A DNA stretch of 64,000 nt. It comes from Rhizophlyctis rosea (taxonomy: Eukaryota > Chytridiomycota > Chytridiomycetes > Rhizophlyctidales > Rhizophlyctidaceae). The stretch lies in assembly GCA_027596075.1 (NCBI GenBank), contig JADGJC010000016.1, positions 124,001 to 188,000 on the forward strand. Direction: 5' to 3'. Made by a program: the position numbers and the translations under genes. The notes under the pieces were generated by a model that was not told the DNA's origin, did no database searches, and saw only the letters and a list, made by a program, of their open reading frames with translations. This document shows, one piece after another, positions 36,743-59,422 of the stretch (within the stretch, counting starts at the first letter, position 1; the number at the start of each line of letters is the position of its first letter).

Positions 36743-39700
36743 TCACCCATTCCTCCGACTCATCCCATACCCATGCGGTCCAAATTCCCCACCTCCCCCC
36801 TCCGCAGCAATAAACCCACCAGCATGCGTCAAATGATGTGGTGCCCCACCACCCGGCGGCTGCTGCTGTTGCTGATGCTGCAGTGGTTGTCCTCCACCTC
36901 CCTGCCCCTGCGCCCCATGCATCAACCCATTCCCAATCTCCTGATCATTCCTCGCCAAATTCAACAAAGACTGCACAGGCGGCAACACCAAACCCCCTGC
37001 AGCTGTCCCTACCGACCCACCACCACTACCCACACCACCACCCCCACCAACCCTCCAATCCCCCACAACCCCACCATGATGCCCAACATGCGGATGCATC
37101 AAATGCCCACCATGCCCCAAATGCCCCGCGGCATGCCCATGCGACAAATGCGCCGCTTGCCCACCACCCATCATCTGCGTCGGATGAACCGGTGGCGGTG
37201 TCCGATGATGATGTCCCATAACACCATCACCTCGTCCAGCCGCAGCAGCCTGCATCACATACTCCGATAAATGCCCCGCATGTCCAACACCAAACCGATC
37301 AACAGCTGATAACCCGCCCATCCCAACACTCCCCGCATCGCCTGTGTACCGCCCGTACCCGTCCAGGTGGGCATGTCCGCCTGCGAAAGGGTGGTACAGC
37401 GCGTACCCACCGCCTGGATTGAAGTACGTAGCGATGAGCGGGTTGGTACGGTCGCCTAATGCTGTTGTGGAGAGCGCCTGGTGCACGACGCTATTGTACG
37501 TTTGTGGTATCCCCATTGCCACTGGAGGCGCAAATGTAGGGGCCGTTACTGCAACCGCCGTTGCTGCTGTTGTCGTCGCATTCCCCGAAAGCCCCGAGCT
37601 AGACCCACTCGCAGCAACATGCGTCGACCCGCCGACCTCCTTCCGTTCACCCGCTCCATGACTCCCATTCGTCTGCGTACTTTCCAGCACCACCGCACCA
37701 CCTCCCCTCCGGCCTTCTCCCCTTGCGCTCTTACCCACAACATTCCCACCATCCCCATCTCCACTCACCGCCCCCCTTCCCCTCTTAACTCCACTCCGTA
37801 CCGCCCCACCCTGCCCATTTGATCCCCCGCCACTCCCGCCCTCCTCCCCACCAACCTTCCCAACCTGCGTCTCAAGCACCATCCTAACAACCGGATCCAA
37901 AACACTCTGATACCGACAAACATCCATCATATCCCTCTCCGTCTCCCCATCATCCCTAACCTCCCCATCCCCACCCCCCTCCACACCCCCCTCCTTCCCC
38001 CCCTCCCTCATCTCAACCATCAACCTCACCAACATACCAAGCTCCCTCTCCTCAACACCCCCACCCTTCCTCCCCTCCCACTCACTCCCCCTCTTGAAAA
38101 ACGACCCAATAGTAGGTCGACTCCCAACCCTCCAAACACTCCTCCCCCTCCCCCCTCCACCTTCCCCCTCCGCCAACTCAAACCCAAAAGGCGGAACCGC
38201 CAAAATAGTAGCACCATCCCCACTCCTCCGTCCCCTCCCATCTTCCTCCTCCTCCTCCTCCTCCTCCTCTTCCTCTTCCTCCCCCCCATCCTCAACTTCA
38301 TGCCCACCCTTCCGCAAAAAAACATCCAACCCAGCTTCCCGCCGGTTATTCTGGTAATAATTTCGTACTTGGTTCGCCGTCTTACTGCCTTTGAATGTCT
38401 CGGCTACTGATGCCCAGTCTCGGCCGTGGGATGTTAGAGCGCCTTTCAAATGCTCCCTTTCGGCTTTGGACCAGTAGGAGGCGGCTTTGCGTTGTGGTTG
38501 TTGCGTTGGGGTTGGTGGGGGTTGTTGTTGCTGTTGAGGTTGTGTTCCGTCGGGAGTAGCGGTGACTTCTGGGTCTCCTGCGGTTGCCCCAGCAGCGGCA
38601 GCACCACTAACTATCCCTTCATCGGTCTTGACATTGGCAGAAACAGCTGCACCACCCTCCAACTCAACCGCTGCCCCATCACCCAACACCAAAGACTTCT
38701 TCCCAGACCGCTTCCGCTTCCGTCCCGTCTTCGCAGCATCCTCATTCCCAGCACCTGCTTCCGCCATTCGCACGTCGTCCCCATCCGGTTCGTCCGTCAA
38801 AGTAACTTTCGTCGTCGTAACAGTCTCCTCCACCGCCGCGACAACCACATCCGGTCGATCACCCGTAACGACCGAAATAGTCGACGAACTACTACTCACA
38901 ACCACACCTTCACCCCTCTCCTCCTCCAAAGTAACAGACTTCCGCACCTTCTTCTTCTCCACCTTCTCCCCTTTCTCCGCAACCCCAACTTTTCCCCTCT
39001 CACCCCCCTCCGCCCCACTCATCCTCTCCCCTTCCATCTCTGCACTTCCAACCCCCCTTCCAACCCCCTCACCCTTCTCCCCCCTCCCCCCACCACCACC
39101 ATGCCCACTGTCCGGACTCTCATCCGGCGACCTCTTCGAACCCTGCGACGGCGGTGGCGGTCTCTCACCATACGGCGGCGGAGCCATATGCGAAGACTGC
39201 TGATGGTGGTACCACTGCTGCGGGGAGCGGTGGTCTAGGTCGTTTTGCCGGTTTGGGGAGTCGAAGTCGTAGCGGGGATGGTTTGGTGGGGAGTGGTGGC
39301 CGTTGTTGTTTGATGGGGGGTAGTGGTGCATGGGGGGGATTGGAGGTGAGCCTATGGCGATATTCGAAAAGATTACGTCAGTTACATGTAAGTATATCAT
39401 CTTCCACATAATCAACGGCCAAAACGACCACATTACAAGATCCACCCTCTATACCCAAATAGACACTCACCGACAGGCCCCCCACCACCACCACCAAACC
39501 GATTCTCCATAACGAAAACATGCTCCCCCTTCTTCCCCTCCCCACCTCCATTCCCACCACCCTTCATTTTCCTCATCCTACCCCCAACATCAAACTCCGG
39601 CGGGACCCCACCCTTCCCAACCCCTCCACCTCTCACCCTCCCATTCCACTCCTCATCATCCTCCGCCCACTGCGGCGCTCTCCTCCCCATCATATCAGAC

Positions 39701-50840: not shown

Positions 50841-53638
50841 CTACTGCCCACCAACCAAATCCGCAGGAGGCTTCACTCCCGGGAGCATAAACACCTCATC
50901 CAACGGCAGTTCCTTCGCAGTCTCGATGAAAACCTTTGCCGCCGCCTGTGAATGTCCCGCACATTGTTTCTTGATCGCCGCCTTCTTCTTCGGATCAGGT
51001 ACGTCCCTGTGCATCTGCATGTTCAGTACCAATGCCTGCCGAGAAAAAATGGGAATGGTGAGTCTTCATATGGCATGCCTACACATGACGAAGCAAAAAG
51101 ATGACATCAACACTCTACCTGCGCCATCCGCGTAACATACGCATCATCCTTCACAAACCCATCATACATCTGATGCCGCAAATCCGGCACATCATAATAC
51201 AAATTCTGCATAAGCTTACGACACAACGAATGAATTGCAATCCAATCTATCCCAAATTTGTACGTCTCCTTCTGTTCCGCCTCAGACACTTTGACAAATT
51301 CATCCAGTAAACTCAAAATATCGGCCCCGCCCTCCGTCGTCGCATGTGCCTCGCCAACATTGCAGTTCCCGATCCCTGTCCCCGCAGACTAGGTATATGC
51401 TTCTCGAAAATCTCCATCGTCATGGGCGCCTTTTGCGCCCGACATACAAACCCGATATACTCGATGAAGGAATCATCTTCTTTGATGATTTGTCTCCCAC
51501 CTTTCGGTGACCCGGAAATACCGTTAGGTTTCTTAACCGTCTTCCGAACATCTTTTGAGAAACTTGCTGCACTACTCCCTAATGCGATTTTGAGGTACTT
51601 CCAGTAATCCCCCGCCGGGACGCGACCGCTGAATATCCGTGGCCCGAGGGTGCGCATGAGGAATTCGAATAGCGGGATGGGTTGTTCGAGGAACTTTTCT
51701 TGCCGGAGGGCGTTGTAGGCGTGCACAGTGAGGAGGATGAAGCCGCCCCATTGAAAGGCTTTCATGCCGGTGAAGTAGGCCATGCAGGCGGAGGATTCGA
51801 GCGTTCCGACTGTGAGCCAGGGGTTGTTGATTAGGTAGGAGAAGGGTTTGTTCTTTTCCGTAGCAGGATATTGGAAGTGTGCATGAACTTTCTTGATAAA
51901 GTCGTTCAAAATGAGGACTTGATACATTTCGCAGGTGGCGTCGACGTTCTTTTTGTATTCGGATGTGTCGGGTTCCGAGTCGTTTTCTAGGTAGTTGAGA
52001 CCCGATTTGATGTATCTCCGTCCGAAATCTTGGAGTCGCCCGAAGACGGTTTTGAGTTTGAGGCGCATTGTGTCCCAGGAGTCTAGGAAGATTTGGAGGG
52101 CGAAGAGGAAGGTTATGGAAGGGTTCCAGGGGTCTTTGCTGTTTTGCCATTCCCGGAAGTGCTTGAGGAGAGCGTCGTCGTTGAAGCCGTGGGCGGGACC
52201 GTGCTGGGCCATCCATGACCAGTCGGAGACTTGACCTAGGACCAGCACCATGTCTTCTCCAAGCTGTTGTTCATACGTCATGTCGGGACGGGAACTTTTG
52301 GGGTTGAGCTTTGCTGTTGTCCCTGGGAACATGAGCAATTTTTCAACCTCTGCATCGCAAAACTCCATCAGTTGTGAAAGGATGACGTAACATTTGGTCA
52401 TTCCCAACTCGGCGAGTTGTTGGATGGCGGGGCTTCAATTCAGCATGTGAGTTTTGAGAGTTTTTGGCAACTCTCCTGCATATTGAATTGACAAGAAGAA
52501 TGATGACTTACTCGTTTTTGTCTATAGTCCGACCCTTCATTTTGGATTCGTTGTCCAGGTGCAGCATTGTCGCCCATTTGACATACATGTTCAGCTCCGG
52601 GTAGTTGGTCTTCATATTTTGTTCCATGGATGCCACCAATTCCATCGCCACAGTCATTGTGATTGAAACCGTCACTTCAGTGATTTGCCCTGTGATACAT
52701 GGGAACCTTTAGGACTGTTTTCCTGGAAGGCTGAACAGAATCTTGAGGCCAACTTACGCAGCTTATACTTGATCCACAACTTCTTGATGAAAGTACGGAC
52801 ATTCTTCAAGTCCTCATACAAACACCATGCGGCAAACTTCGCCTCCGCATGTCTCTCTTCCATGAGTGCATATGCAGGCGCTCGCTCCTCCTCAGCAGTA
52901 GGCTTCTGCACCTTTGGCTCCGGAACCGGCCTGACAGGAGTCTCTTCCACATCCGACGTCCCGTCCTCCTCCACATCCTCCACCTCCAAAACATCAAACT
53001 TATTCGACACCTCCGCCACCTCCTTGTCAAGCCCCTTACTCTTCTCCCCCGCCGTGTCCTCCTTCCCTCGCTCACCACCCGCTGCCCTCCTCCCAACCCT
53101 CTCAAACAAGTTATACGCCCTCTCCAACACTGAGATAAAATGCTGATGACTAACATTATCCTCCTCCATCTTCCTCCTCTCAGATTGCCGCTTCAATGTT
53201 TCCCTCGCGTCGGTGTAGAATGACATGAAGCTCTTACGCAAGTCGAGCACACGTTTTAGGGTGGATAAAGTGGCACGGGGTAATGGCACCAGAAAATCTT
53301 GGCTGATGGCAGCTAGGGCGGAAATAAGGTTATTTGAATTGGGTTACGTTGAGGACGGTGGTGGGTGCCTGGGGCTGCGAATTGGGGGACGATGTGGTGG
53401 GAGGGGCAGTGGTCTTCGCTTCTTTCCTGGCCTTGCCTTTGAGGCGACCTTAAGATTGTGACTGGGAAGAAGCGGGCTTAGGGGTAAAATCTGTCAAAGT
53501 TGCACCGGCAGTCAGTTGTTCAAAACGATCTGGGGGAAGGACGGAGGACGCTATGGTCACGATGGAAGAGATGACAGCTTCTGTGCCCTTCTTGTAACTC
53601 ATGTAGGAGTCAAACAAGACTCCTGGTAATTGGATCAT
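50841..53638 (-). CDS. DUF6604-domain fungal protein of unknown function
   Basis: Starts at the ATG at 53638 (MIQLPGVLFDSYMSYKKGTE). The N-terminal YKxGT helix, then after an intron GRLKGKARKEAK (53456-53420), and the exon with VLDLRKSFMSFYTDARETL and SHQHFISVLERAYNLFERV are the hallmarks of the fungal DUF6604 N-terminal domain (name from memory). Acidic low-complexity sequence (DVLEVEDVEEDGTSDVEE) follows, then helical exons ending in a large exon (52407 to about 51313) with QVSDWSWMAQHGPAHGFNDD, NPWLTVGTLESSACMAYFTG and LMRTLGPRIFSG. The final exon ends LPGVKPPADLVGGQ. No signal or TM segment. One intron between 53461 and 53289 could not be resolved to a single splice pair. The role of the family is unknown to me. 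Confidence 0.8.
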
Positions 53639-54314: not shown

Positions 54315-57300
54315 CTAAATCCTCGGCACAAGCATCGACTCCCTCGCCGCCTTATCTGCAACAATCCCCACACTCTCCGCCGGGAACATCCCATGCTTCC
54401 CACTAGTAACATTAACTCCCTCGCACCACCCATCCGCGAAAATCGTCCTTACTACAATCGTGTCCCCAACATGTAAATCTACTTCATCCCCGTACTCTAC
54501 GTGGTCGGAAATGAACGATTTCAAAACCGTTCGGACGGGGCCGCCGCCGCGTGCTGTCGGGGAGTCGGGTGTGGGTTGTGGGGCGGGTTGTGCGGGGGTT
54601 GGATTAGGGTAGGAGGAAGATGGACGTGGAGGGGAAGGTGGAGAGGAGGGAGAGTTGTTGGGTGGAGGGGTTGCGGTTCGTTTACGGGCTCCAGACTTTG
54701 ATGGACGACGGGGAGGCGGGCCGGTTTGAACAAACTCCAACGATGCACGCGGGCTAGGAGAGGAAGAACGTGGGGTTGAAGGAGGTGTAATGGGTCGGTC
54801 CGTCGGCTCCGGGGATGCTACTCTCGGTGCCGGGGAAACGACCATTGACGCCAAGTGGTCCTCCTCACTACCATGGCGCGTGGGCGAAGCTGCACGTCGT
54901 GAGGAACGAGACCAGGAGTTGGATCTCGCGAGTGGGACTTCGTCGTCCTCGCTAACATGACGAGTCGGCGAAGCGGCGCGCCAGGATGGTTGAGAACGGG
55001 AGTTGGACCTGACGAGAGGAATTGGTTCTTCCTCGTTACTGTGAGGAGCAGGAGAAGGGGCCCTTCGGGAAGATTGGGTACGGGAGTTGGACCTCGATAG
55101 AGGGATGGATTCTTCCTCGTTGTACTGAGGAGCAGGAGACGCAGTCCGACGAGAACGGGAGTTGTTCCTTGCAAGCGGGATAGACTCTTCCTCGTTGTTG
55201 TGAGGAGCAGGCGAAGCGGTCCGGCGAGAACGAGAGTTATTCCTCGCAAGCGGAATCGGCTCTTCTTCACTATTATGCCTAGTAGGAGAAGCCGCACGTC
55301 TCTGAGACCACGCGTCAGACCGCCCTAGCGGAATCTCATCGTCCTCATTTCCATAACGGGTAGGTGAAGTAGCGCGATGCGATGACCGAGAGTTAGACCT
55401 AGCAAGTGGGACCACGGTCGCGGCTGCCATCTGTTCTTCCTCACTGTTATGACGCGTAGGCGAAGTAGCGCGACGAGGAGATTGCGATCGGGAGTTGTGT
55501 CTGGCCGGTGAAGGAGTCCTCGACCTCGAACGAGCCGGACGAACTGGTGTAGCTGCCGGGGTCGGGAATGCTTCTCGTGCATCGTACGATGACCTCCCCC
55601 CCGCTTCATCCACAGACCTCCTACCCCGGAATGGCTCAACAACCGGTACAGGCTCAACAGGAGCAGGCGCCGAAACATTCTGAGGAATCCTCGGCAAATC
55701 CGTCGACCTCCTTACCCCATTCGCACTAACAGGCGCCCTATCAACAATCTCCACCCCTTCCCCACTCGGAAGCCCCACCGGTCCCGAAATCATGCTCTTA
55801 TCAATGCCCCCAGCAAACGCTTTCCTCACAGGAGGTGTCGGTGTCACATCAGGTGTAACACTCCCCGAAGGTGGCAAATTTTCCAACCCCCTCTCCTTCT
55901 CCTTCCCCTCCTTTCCAAGACTCTTCTTCTTCTTCAACCCAAAGAACGAACTCATCCTTTGTCCCGCGCTCTCCTTCTCCTTTTCCTTCTCCTTCGCCAG
56001 GACCGGTGTCATCGGAGTGCTAGGCTGAGGTACCGCTGACTGCCCCCGTGCTTGAATCTGCGGTTGCACCTGCGCCGACATTTGTGGCTGTTGAGGCTGC
56101 ACCGGCACACTCGGTGCCCCCACCGCAGGTCGATCCGCAAACTCAGCAACAATAGCATACTCCCCGTCGTCTTCCTCCGTTACAGAACTCTTAAGTGGAG
56201 TCGGCGCGAACGCAGTAGCGGTGGGCGAACCCATGCTGGAACTGGGACGCCGGAACGTGTTTTTGAATGCTCCACTGCTACCTCTGCGGTGACGATTTAA
56301 GCTTTCGTGAGTGATATCGTCACGCTCGGAGGTGAAGGATGCACGAGAGACGTCTGAGTCTATTGAGGGGGGGCGGCTGACGGCGTTACGTAAGGGCGAG
56401 GGACGGGGAGGAGCGAATTTGGGTCCGTACGGGTTGCGGAAGGGTGATGGTTGGGGCTCGAGGGTTGGGGATGGGGGTGTTTGAGTGACGCTAGGGATGG
56501 GTTCAGGGGCGTTTTGCTGTTGTTGACTGGTGGTATCGGCTTCGTTTCTGGGAGCGTTGACTCCGTTGATGCCATTCATGCTCGATCCCTTGGGTGGCGG
56601 CGTCGGTGGTGCAGCCGCTTGCCGGTTCTTATCATCATTAAAGTACCCATTCGGAATTTTGAAACTTCCCCTCTGGCCCAACGGCACATCATCATCATCG
56701 CTCAACACAGACGAAAAGCTCATCCTCTGCGCATCCTGCACGACGCTCTTCACCATTTCCTCCTTGCCCATATCCTGACTCCACACACTAGCCCTCCTGC
56801 CATCTCCGCCCAACCTCTCTTTCTCCAAGTTCCCGATAACGCCAACAAGCTGTTTCATCCTATCATCGAAATCGAACGTCCAAGTGCAGTCGATCACTCT
56901 GTCCGCATTGACTCTGATCTCGTTCTCGCGGGCGGCTTCCCACCAAGAGCCTGTCAGGATAAGAGGGATAATGGGAACGCCCATTGCTTGTCCGACGATG
57001 TTGAATTCAACGCGGGCGTATGGCGTGGAGAAGTATGATGACGACACGCAAGTGATCATGGCAATGGCTGCAAAATGATAGATTGGTTAGCTTCACAACA
57101 CCGCTGCCAAGAACGCCCCAGTATCACCCACCATCATTCATATCTTGCAAATGCCAAGCATACGGACTCGTCAAATCCATCACGGAAACAGTAGAATCCT
57201 TCGCCACCTTCCGTCGCGGCATAGGCTGAACCCTCCATCCTGCCATCTCAAGCACCTTAACAACCTCTACCGGATCCACCAAATGCTTCTTGTCATCCGC

Positions 57301-59422
57301 CTCATCCCGCAAAATATCCGAATCCTCATAATCGAAACTCACGAAAATGAGACCCTGATCGAAAAACACTTGAGAGGGGCATCGGGAGAGGACGTACGAC
57401 TCTGCTTGTTTGGCTGATTCGGATGGAGGTGCGGTAGCACCAGTAGGGACAGTGGGTTTCCAATCCGCTCCCAACCCGTCCCAGGTTCCAGCAACACGGA
57501 CTTGTCTCGGGTCAACAAAGAACTCTCCACCAATGGATGCATCAAACGCAATGCGGTACCATCCATCCCACACACCAACAAACCTTCCCGCCCACCAAGT
57601 GTACCGATCCGCCGCCCAAAGTTTCCTCACTTCCACAGCCCTACCAGGCTGAATGATACCCAACATCCACGGCGGGCTAGAAGCCTGTACCGGTCTAACA
57701 TGCCCCGCCGTAACCCAATCCGCCGGCGCCGCAGCATCCTTCGGCAAACCCTCCGGCTGAAACGCAACCCTATACCTCCTATTGGCACCAAACGCCTCCG
57801 CAGTACTAACAATCGTCGCCCGAACCCACACATAACCCCCAGCAGCATGCTCCTCATTCGTCGAATACGGCAACTTAACAGCAACTTCAATCGCATCACC
57901 GTCCCTCCAGAATTTGGCGCCCCGATCAGCGGGTTTAGGAAGCGGCGTGTCACCCCGCATGAATTGCATTAGCTTTGACTCTAGGTCTGGTGCCCAGTGT
58001 TCGGCGGCTTGGAGGACTTGGAGTTGTTTTGCGACTTCGCGGAGGGAGGATGGGGCGGTGAGTTTTTCGGTGCAGTCAATTATGGAGGTGATGTTGAAAA
58101 ATGTTGCGAGGGAAGTTGGGGTTGGTGTGTATGGTTTGTCGCCGAGTGCGATGGGGACTGTGGTGCAGAATTCTTGTCAAAACCTGTTTCCACTTTGCAA
58201 AATTAGACAGTTATGTACTTACTGTACTTGGTGCGGCTAGCAATAGCTGAATATAATTCCCGTTTTCCCCTCTCCGACCGTGCGTATTGCTCCGAAAAGG
58301 CGATGATTACAGCCCAAGCTGAATGGATGCTGCTGTCAGCATTGTATTCCATACCCACAACGACATGCGTTCCTACCTGATCCAATAGCCCCAACAACAG
58401 CATCAAAAATCTCCCGTTCAGTTCCCTCCATATCCATGTCAGTCCAAACCATGAACGCCCCGGTCCTCTGAATCGCGAGCCGCAAATCCAGAGGATCACA
58501 TGGCCCAATCTCTCCCAAATTGATTTCCCACTCTCCCCGTCCTATGCGTGAGTTCCTCTTACTATATGACACGACCACAACAAGGTCGCTGTTAGCTGAG
58601 GAATTTGCGGTTGCGGCGACTGATAGTGGGACGAGATCGCGACGGTGAGAGATGGTGTCTGATGCAGGGAGTTTGACGGTGATTGAGGCGGGTTCAAGAG
58701 GAATGCCCTTTTTGAGGAGTGAGGCGGGGCGGTTGGAGGCGCTGGACGAAGTGCTGTGGGTGGAGCTTGTGTCTGCGCCGGGGGTGGATAGTGATGATGT
58801 TGATTTGGTGGGATTTATAGGTTGAATTCCCATCCATGCTACCCTTTTTCGGTTGGCTTGCGCGACTTGTTTCCCTTCATCAAACAAGTCCCGACGGGAA
58901 TGTAGCGTTAGTTTGGGGTAACCCGTGCCGAGTGGTATGTATGTTTTTAGCAGTTGTGTGTCTCCGTCTTTTAGGATGCGACCGTCGGGAGTCATGCACC
59001 ATGTTTCGTCGTCTGGGTTTGGGTCATTACGAGTTGCGTCGATGCGAACGGCTGCGAGAGCTGGCCCATATTGCTGTAAAAAATTGAAGAGCGGTCAGAT
59101 AACTCTCTTTTGTTCAATCTTAAGACTTTCCGTATGGAATCAACCAGTGAACCAAAGGTGTAGGCGATATTTTGAGCCATACCAGCGATTGTAAACAAAC
59201 ATCATCGCACGTAAACAAACCACCTTCACACCAACCACAAGCTCCCACTGTCAACGACCCAACGTAATTCTGGCGCAGATTACCCACCTTCCACACATAT
59301 CCAAAAAAGTCCTCAATGCTACAATTCATCGGCACCTGCACCACAAAACTACACGGTACGCGCCCTGCGTACACCTGAACCGGATATGTCGGTTCCTTCT
59401 TTTTTGACATAAGGGAAGGCAT
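54315..59422 (-). CDS. Double-TIR protein with Tudor/Agenet-like modules, RS-type tandem repeats and C-terminal SH3
   Basis: Exons 59264-59422, 58377-59073, 58223-58318, 57132-58157 and 54315-57067 join in frame to 1,576 residues (start MPSLMSKKKEPTYPV). Residues ~10-110 look like a beta-grasp fold (YPVQVYAGRVPCSFVVQVP). TIR1, ~216-350: DLVVVVSYSKRN, then WAVIIAFSEQYARSERGKRE with Glu306, then IPIALGDK and SIIDCTEKL. Two small barrels follow (~401-480 and ~488-545; YVWVRATIVS, YTWWAGRFVGVWDGWYRIAF). TIR2, ~587-745: LIFVSFDYEDSD, AIAMITCVSSSYFSTPYARVE with Glu680, VPIIPLIL, RVIDCTWTF. The shared IIDCT/VIDCT ending shows internal duplication. Then ~700 disordered residues with an RS-type repeat, and a final SH3 (YGDEVDLHVGDTIVVRTIF, DGWCEGVN, GKHGMFPAESV). 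Probably a signalling scaffold; NAD hydrolysis is possible. Intron 1 (190 bp) is the least certain junction. Confidence 0.85.
54851..55455. repeat. Coding minisatellite, 75-84-bp unit, about seven copies plus a partial
   Basis: Translates on the minus strand to repeats of the form R/P-H-x-S/N-E-E-E-x-I-P-L-A-R-S/N-N-S-R-S-x-R-R-A/T-x-S-P, 25-28 residues each, inside the disordered part of the double-TIR protein. Each unit carries acidic, basic and Ser-Pro elements, plausible for repeated phosphorylation and 14-3-3 docking (RSNS). Confidence 0.85.

Follow-up and report, generated by a model that had tools for sequence, protein, structure and literature searches.

A multi-domain protein with a TIR domain and a second, TIR-like domain in the chytrid Rhizophlyctis rosea, a possible TIR scaffold

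The closest described systems include the catalytic TIR NADases SARM1, SpbK and TIR-STING, which passages of the corresponding papers describe as carrying a glutamate at one helix position. According to these passages, mutations of SARM1 at W638, at E642 and in the BB loop greatly lower its activity (PMC8266388), the BB-loop Trp of TIR-STING is believed to bind the substrate (PMC12421889) and composite TIR sites that cleave nicotinamide adenine dinucleotide (NAD+; NADase sites) require two TIRs (PMC12847820, PMC12421889). In fungi, published passages relate the HET domain to TIR (PMC4986451), mention TIRs (PMC7075850) and report TIR in NOD-like receptors (NLRs) of Chytridiomycota (PMC9815663). 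A 2026 preprint states, in the part concerned, that the STIR clan has 0 fungal members in InterPro and, in EukProt, only those of Rhizoclosmatium globosum, while acknowledging the very small number of fungal TIRs reported earlier (PMC13142454). We describe here a gene of the soil chytrid Rhizophlyctis rosea (order Rhizophlyctidales) that encodes TIR1 and TIR2 with two Agenet/Tudor-like barrels between them, followed by a disordered tail and an SH3 domain. It is carried by a 64,000-nucleotide stretch of contig JADGJC010000016.1 (GCA_027596075.1, positions 124,001-188,000), hereafter the window, to which all coordinates refer.

The gene lies on the minus strand (59422-54315) and comprises five exons separated by GT...AG introns with matching phases, without any internal stop. 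Its spliced product has 1568 residues (not 1576 as initially counted, a difference that made the first residue numbers 8 too high) and is 100% identical, over all residues, to the NCBI protein HDV00_002641 (P0001) of R. rosea. A second R. rosea series (HK097) includes two proteins that align to residues 1-462 (P0002) and 528-1567 (P0003), residues 463-527, i.e., most of the second barrel, being outside both. Both are marked partial and belong to different protein records; they are probably the halves of one orthologous gene in a second strain. The domain order given in a preliminary description of this DNA (TIR1, two barrels, TIR2, disordered repeat tail, SH3) was found, and is preceded by a conserved N-terminal globular region that was missing from it:

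58891..59389, minus strand: N-terminal globular region (residues 12-106; crosses intron 1; 87.4% identical in P0002)
58003..58590, minus strand: TIR1 (residues 207-361; crosses introns 2 and 3; Pfam TIR_2 and hhalign)
58257..58259, minus strand: E298 codon (putative catalytic Glu of TIR1; alignment with other TIRs)
57688..57924, minus strand: first Agenet/Tudor-like barrel (residues 388-466; Pfam Agenet)
57493..57675, minus strand: second Agenet/Tudor-like barrel (residues 471-531; called by eye)
56811..57366, minus strand: TIR2 (residues 574-737; crosses intron 4; sub-threshold Pfam TIR_2 and hhalign)
57006..57008, minus strand: E672 codon (putative catalytic Glu of TIR2; alignment with other TIRs)
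54552..56729, minus strand: disordered Ser/Arg/Pro-rich tail (residues 765-1490; PxxPx[KR] motifs; disorder deduced from composition)
54885..55400, minus strand: repeat block (residues 1208-1379, 172 residues; absent from P0003)
54360..54536, minus strand: SH3 domain (residues 1496-1554; Pfam SH3_1 and SH3 domains of the PDB)

Like SARM1, SpbK and TIR-STING, the window TIRs have a glutamate at the same helix position; unlike in these proteins, they are diverged, lie in one chain, are accompanied by other accessory domains and are only putatively catalytic. Dictyostelium TirE, likened here by its description in passages of one paper (PMC13142454), is likewise a eukaryotic protein with a diverged pair of tandem TIRs but has RCC1 repeats instead of Agenet barrels, tail and SH3. 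No description of a TIR-Agenet-Agenet-TIR-SH3 architecture was recognised in searches of open-licence papers, and this arrangement looks like a novel variation on multi-domain TIR proteins. Our tentative reading is that this protein is a TIR scaffold, detected so far in R. rosea alone, which is part of a large TIR repertoire and whose TIR1 perhaps cleaves NAD+ with a partner TIR.

The identity of the two TIRs relies on Pfam TIR_2 (STIR clan, curated cut-off of 28 bits) and on profile comparison. TIR1 passes this cut-off in the whole protein (31.6 bits, in two stretches) and is just under it when cut out (27.2 bits). TIR2 is below it, both alone (14.9 bits) and in the second series (17.1 bits), where the match covers positions 15-121 of 122. 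Compared by hhalign with the TIRs of R. rosea that we call CDP-class, TIR1 reached a probability of 98.1% and TIR2 of 96.4%; the score of TIR2 was 60.2, against a maximum of 21.6 for 200 shuffles, and its match was stable on leaving out any one member. The CDP-class profile itself matches TIRs of solved structure. Both window TIRs match the sub-type SYxxxNS - long loop - DP - W-x-D - SxxY...E of this class, C333 being their best single-member match. Thus, the proposal of two TIR domains holds by Pfam for TIR1, fails by the Pfam cut-off for TIR2 and is recovered for TIR2 by profile comparison, by which it is clearly TIR-like, the structure model being weak.

The motif S-x-x-Y-x8-E is present in TIR1 (S286/Y289/E298) and TIR2 (S660/Y663/E672), with equal Tyr-to-Glu spacing and an IDCT strand in each, as first described. 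However, it does not occur twice only, since a third occurrence is found at residue 583, within the first strand of TIR2. These three occurrences and its frequency in 5000 shuffles of the protein (mean 0.18, P(>=2)=0.016) make the motif weak evidence when taken by itself, and the case depends on the profile comparisons. The motif matches the usual TIR layout of the genome: the C333 TIR has it, and the L036 TIR has the same Tyr-to-Glu spacing with Thr replacing Ser.

In an alignment of TIR1 and TIR2 (two series each) with an Anaerolineae TIR and a viral-contig TIR, E298 and E672, both kept in the second series, align with the helix C glutamate of the other TIRs, and this glutamate is among the 7 invariant columns of these six low-identity sequences. 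This agrees with the initial placement of both glutamates at the NADase position. TIR1 keeps W255-x-D257 at the BB loop and has an Arg (R294) four residues before Glu. TIR2 has a Tyr (Y668) four residues before Glu, like the Y188/E192 pair of SpbK in the passage describing it (PMC12847820), has lost the BB-loop W-x-D and has ~9-12 extra residues there. An intact W-x-D together with an aromatic residue before Glu, a combination that this sub-type may or may not require, is found in neither domain. According to the same source, the modelled NAD+-binding residues of SpbK TIR-A include its BB-loop region and its glutamate, i.e., both are in the same TIR (PMC12847820). Therefore, TIR1 would be the better catalytic protomer and is the likelier NAD+-cleaving unit, TIR2 being the likelier partner. 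The same observation led us to drop another arrangement, in which the pocket of TIR2 would borrow the BB loop of TIR1.

Between the two R. rosea series, folded domains (74-87% identity) are more conserved than the linker and the tail (66% and 62%). Identity reaches 87.4% for the N-terminal region, 85.9% for TIR1, 73.7% for the first barrel (over 76 of its 80 positions), 81.8% for TIR2 (181 of 186 positions) and 86.7% for SH3 (75 of 76 positions), compared to 66.0% for the linker and 61.8% for the tail (505 of 730 positions alignable). For the N-terminal region, Pfam gave no match in either series and a PDB sequence search nothing better than E 0.097; its strand/helix order in a low-confidence model (mean predicted local distance difference test, pLDDT, of 32.6, obtained by AlphaFold on residues 1-747 with three sequences) allows the guess that it could be ubiquitin-like. 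The cut-out barrel pair scores 21.8 bits (E 2.7e-4) with Pfam Agenet, under the cut-off of 27, and is hence called Agenet-like. The second barrel has no Pfam match of its own, and a PDB sequence search with the barrels gave nothing better than E 0.34; the R. rosea genome has three weak Agenet stretches, none of them over the cut-off. The SH3 domain passes the SH3_1 cut-off (22.9 bits) when cut out (26.2 bits) and in the second series (25.9 bits), is under it in the whole protein (20.4 bits) and matches SH3 domains of known structure in a PDB sequence search.

Six PxxPx[KR] motifs are found in P0001 (one of them outside the tail) and seven in P0003; by order and neighbours, five correspond between the series (PTPPPK/PVPPPK, PTPPVR/PTPPAR, PVRPAR, PRRPSK and PPSPPR). 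The repeat block consists of coding tandem repeats of 75-84 bases of the type RxASPxx...EEExIPLxRxNSRS; since it is absent from the second series, tail length may vary between strains. A polybasic segment, SFFGLKKKKS (55896-55961, minus strand, residues 1021-1042), is conserved within the loosely conserved tail and could be a membrane or nuclear signal.

In the mechanism that we propose, the two TIRs would make head-to-tail TIR contacts inside one chain, from one chain to another or with further TIR proteins that the cell contains. The SH3 domain would bind PxxP motifs in the tail of the same or of a neighbouring molecule and the barrels would bind a ligand, both interactions regulating local concentration or placement. 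TIR1, with W-x-D and the glutamate both kept, may cleave NAD+ once it pairs with a second TIR (TIR2 or a different one), and TIR2, which keeps the glutamate and has lost the BB loop, would act as partner. The result would be a loss of NAD+ or a signal derived from it. An NAD+-linked immune scaffold is plausible. However, TIR2 is devoid of the BB-loop residues, and NADase and immune functions are put forward as conjecture. A more elaborate version would be a pre-wired asymmetric TIR pair in which TIR1 provides the catalytic pocket and BB loop of the composite NADase site, TIR2 is a dedicated partner, ligand binding by the Agenet barrels sets the distance between the two and SH3-PxxP contacts polymerise chains. 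We consider it rather improbable; if true, a fungus would have a TIR holoenzyme made of a single protein, with a Tudor-type reader as its gate.

A serious alternative, to which we attach real though less than even weight, is a non-enzymatic scaffold whose TIRs serve for protein contacts only and which acts in ordinary cell organisation (polarity, cytoskeleton, membrane sites) through its SH3 domain, tail and Agenet barrels. The substitutions beside the catalytic features (Arg four residues before Glu in TIR1, BB loop lost in TIR2) are in favor of it, as is the conserved SFFGLKKKKS segment if it has a membrane role. Furthermore, the gene has an orthologue in the second series and no second copy was found in its own genome (besides the four matches to its own exons, the search gave three matches with E 0.2-3.3), unlike a fast-turning receptor family. 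However, both glutamates were retained although TIR1 and TIR2 share only ~20% identity. Searches of ~5.8 billion proteins gave matches from R. rosea alone; as they score candidates with common 5-residue words (some being limited to the ~8000 sharing most), this choice of candidates can miss distant orthologues.

The 44-Mb genome contains 37 TIR_2 stretches at E<=1, 21 of them over the Pfam cut-off. These counts are lower bounds, since the window gene, with its intron-split TIRs, is missed. Therefore, the rarity of TIRs in fungi assumed in the preliminary description agrees with public surveys, as the relevant part of the preprint reports (PMC13142454), but does not apply to this genome. There are 29 NPHP3_N stretches, and TIR_2 is followed by NPHP3_N/NACHT on the same strand within 3 kilobases in 14 pairs on 13 contigs (C616, C398, C149, C285, C375, C491, C75, C301, C9, C135, C31, C371 and C208), these genes resembling TIR-NACHT receptors. 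Since TIR was already reported in NLRs of Chytridiomycota, as stated in a passage of PMC9815663, the TIR-NACHT combination is in itself no novelty for chytrids. Twenty TIR loci were taken and selected open frames of 15 were scanned for domains. NPHP3_N was found at seven of the 15, all seven with a NACHT match too, WD40 repeats at three (L037, L042 and L051; contigs C75, C398 and C9), Sel1 repeats at two (L045 and L048), ankyrin in the same frame as TIR at L043 and TPR in a frame near TIR at L054. Ankyrin-like repeats were seen, by eye, at L013 (= C333). Outside this genome, the CDP-class alignment detected one Anaerolineae TIR when used to scan prokaryote genomes, and the viral scans gave one TIR locus in all.

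These receptor-like genes raise the alternative that the window protein is an adaptor, whose TIRs would be recruited by activated TIR-NACHT receptors of the same cell and would relay the signal, catalytically or not. The 13 contigs with TIR then NACHT and the NPHP3_N/NACHT matches at seven of 15 scanned loci fit this view. However, the window TIRs are nearest to CDP-class TIRs, which, where scanned, go with Sel1 or (by eye) ankyrin repeats and not with NACHT, and we consider this alternative unlikely. The CDP-class genes (L045, L048, C333/L013) have one TIR each in the stretches read, with these Sel1 or ankyrin-like repeats, not Agenet and SH3. Like some fungal NLRs, the window protein has fungal TIR or TIR-like domains, but a Pfam search over its full length gave neither NACHT nor NB-ARC at E<=5 and no sensor repeats were found, so that it does not qualify as an NLR.

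It is very improbable that TIR2 is another Rossmann-like domain and that the protein has a single TIR. This view is favored by the position of TIR2 under the Pfam cut-off, by a sub-threshold DUF5041 match of similar strength and by its structural matches, which are weak and mixed. The AlphaFold model of TIR2 has a predicted template modelling score of 0.70 and a pLDDT of 66, its fold being partly prompted by the other TIRs included in the six-sequence alignment; the first four Foldseek rows are TIRs (best E 1.4e-3, template modelling scores of 0.29-0.40), and VIA-align did not discriminate between a TIR and a different fold of the Rossmann type. The model is weakly compatible with a TIR. PDB sequence searches gave no match with TIR1 alone or with the TIR1 pair and, with the TIR2 pair, nothing better than E 0.3 (15 sequences, of which 14 are of O-GlcNAc-transferase type and one is an adhesin). 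The shuffled and leave-one-out profile comparisons, the nearly full-length TIR_2 match in the second series and the four Foldseek rows nevertheless argue for a TIR. A direct match between TIR1 and TIR2 is also missing: beyond the IDCT strand, no similarity was found by BLASTP (only a 9-residue match, E=0.23) or hhalign (probability 0.7%), and in a tree both are on very long branches that are not joined. The internal duplication initially put forward is therefore not supported by direct comparison; an old duplication and two separate recruitments are both possible.

The exons of the gene are as follows:

59288..59422, minus strand: exon 1 (residues 1-45; start codon at 59422; splice sites and phase; agrees with P0001)
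58377..59073, minus strand: exon 2 (residues 46-277 plus one base)
58223..58318, minus strand: exon 3 (contains E298)
57132..58157, minus strand: exon 4 (end of TIR1, both barrels and start of TIR2; single unbroken frame)
54315..57067, minus strand: exon 5 (remainder of TIR2, disordered tail, SH3 and stop codon)

That two neighbouring genes were fused by a wrong model is hardly credible, since exon 4 joins parts of both TIRs and both barrels in one unbroken frame, the alternative junctions tried for intron 4 disrupt the frame, and the five-exon model first proposed agrees over 1568 residues with the existing NCBI annotation HDV00_002641, itself a prediction. The downstream neighbour, on the same strand (52672-53343, minus), has a DUF6604 match of 112.1 bits. 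Further away, an open frame of 901 codons (36743-39448, minus strand) has a Myb-like DNA-binding domain.

Overall, with 21 TIR_2 stretches over the cut-off, TIR beside NACHT on 13 contigs and a candidate double-TIR scaffold, R. rosea contrasts with surveys that list almost no fungal TIRs. If any of its TIRs cleave NAD+, early-diverging fungi would join bacteria, plants and animals in having the TIR-NAD+ branch of immunity.

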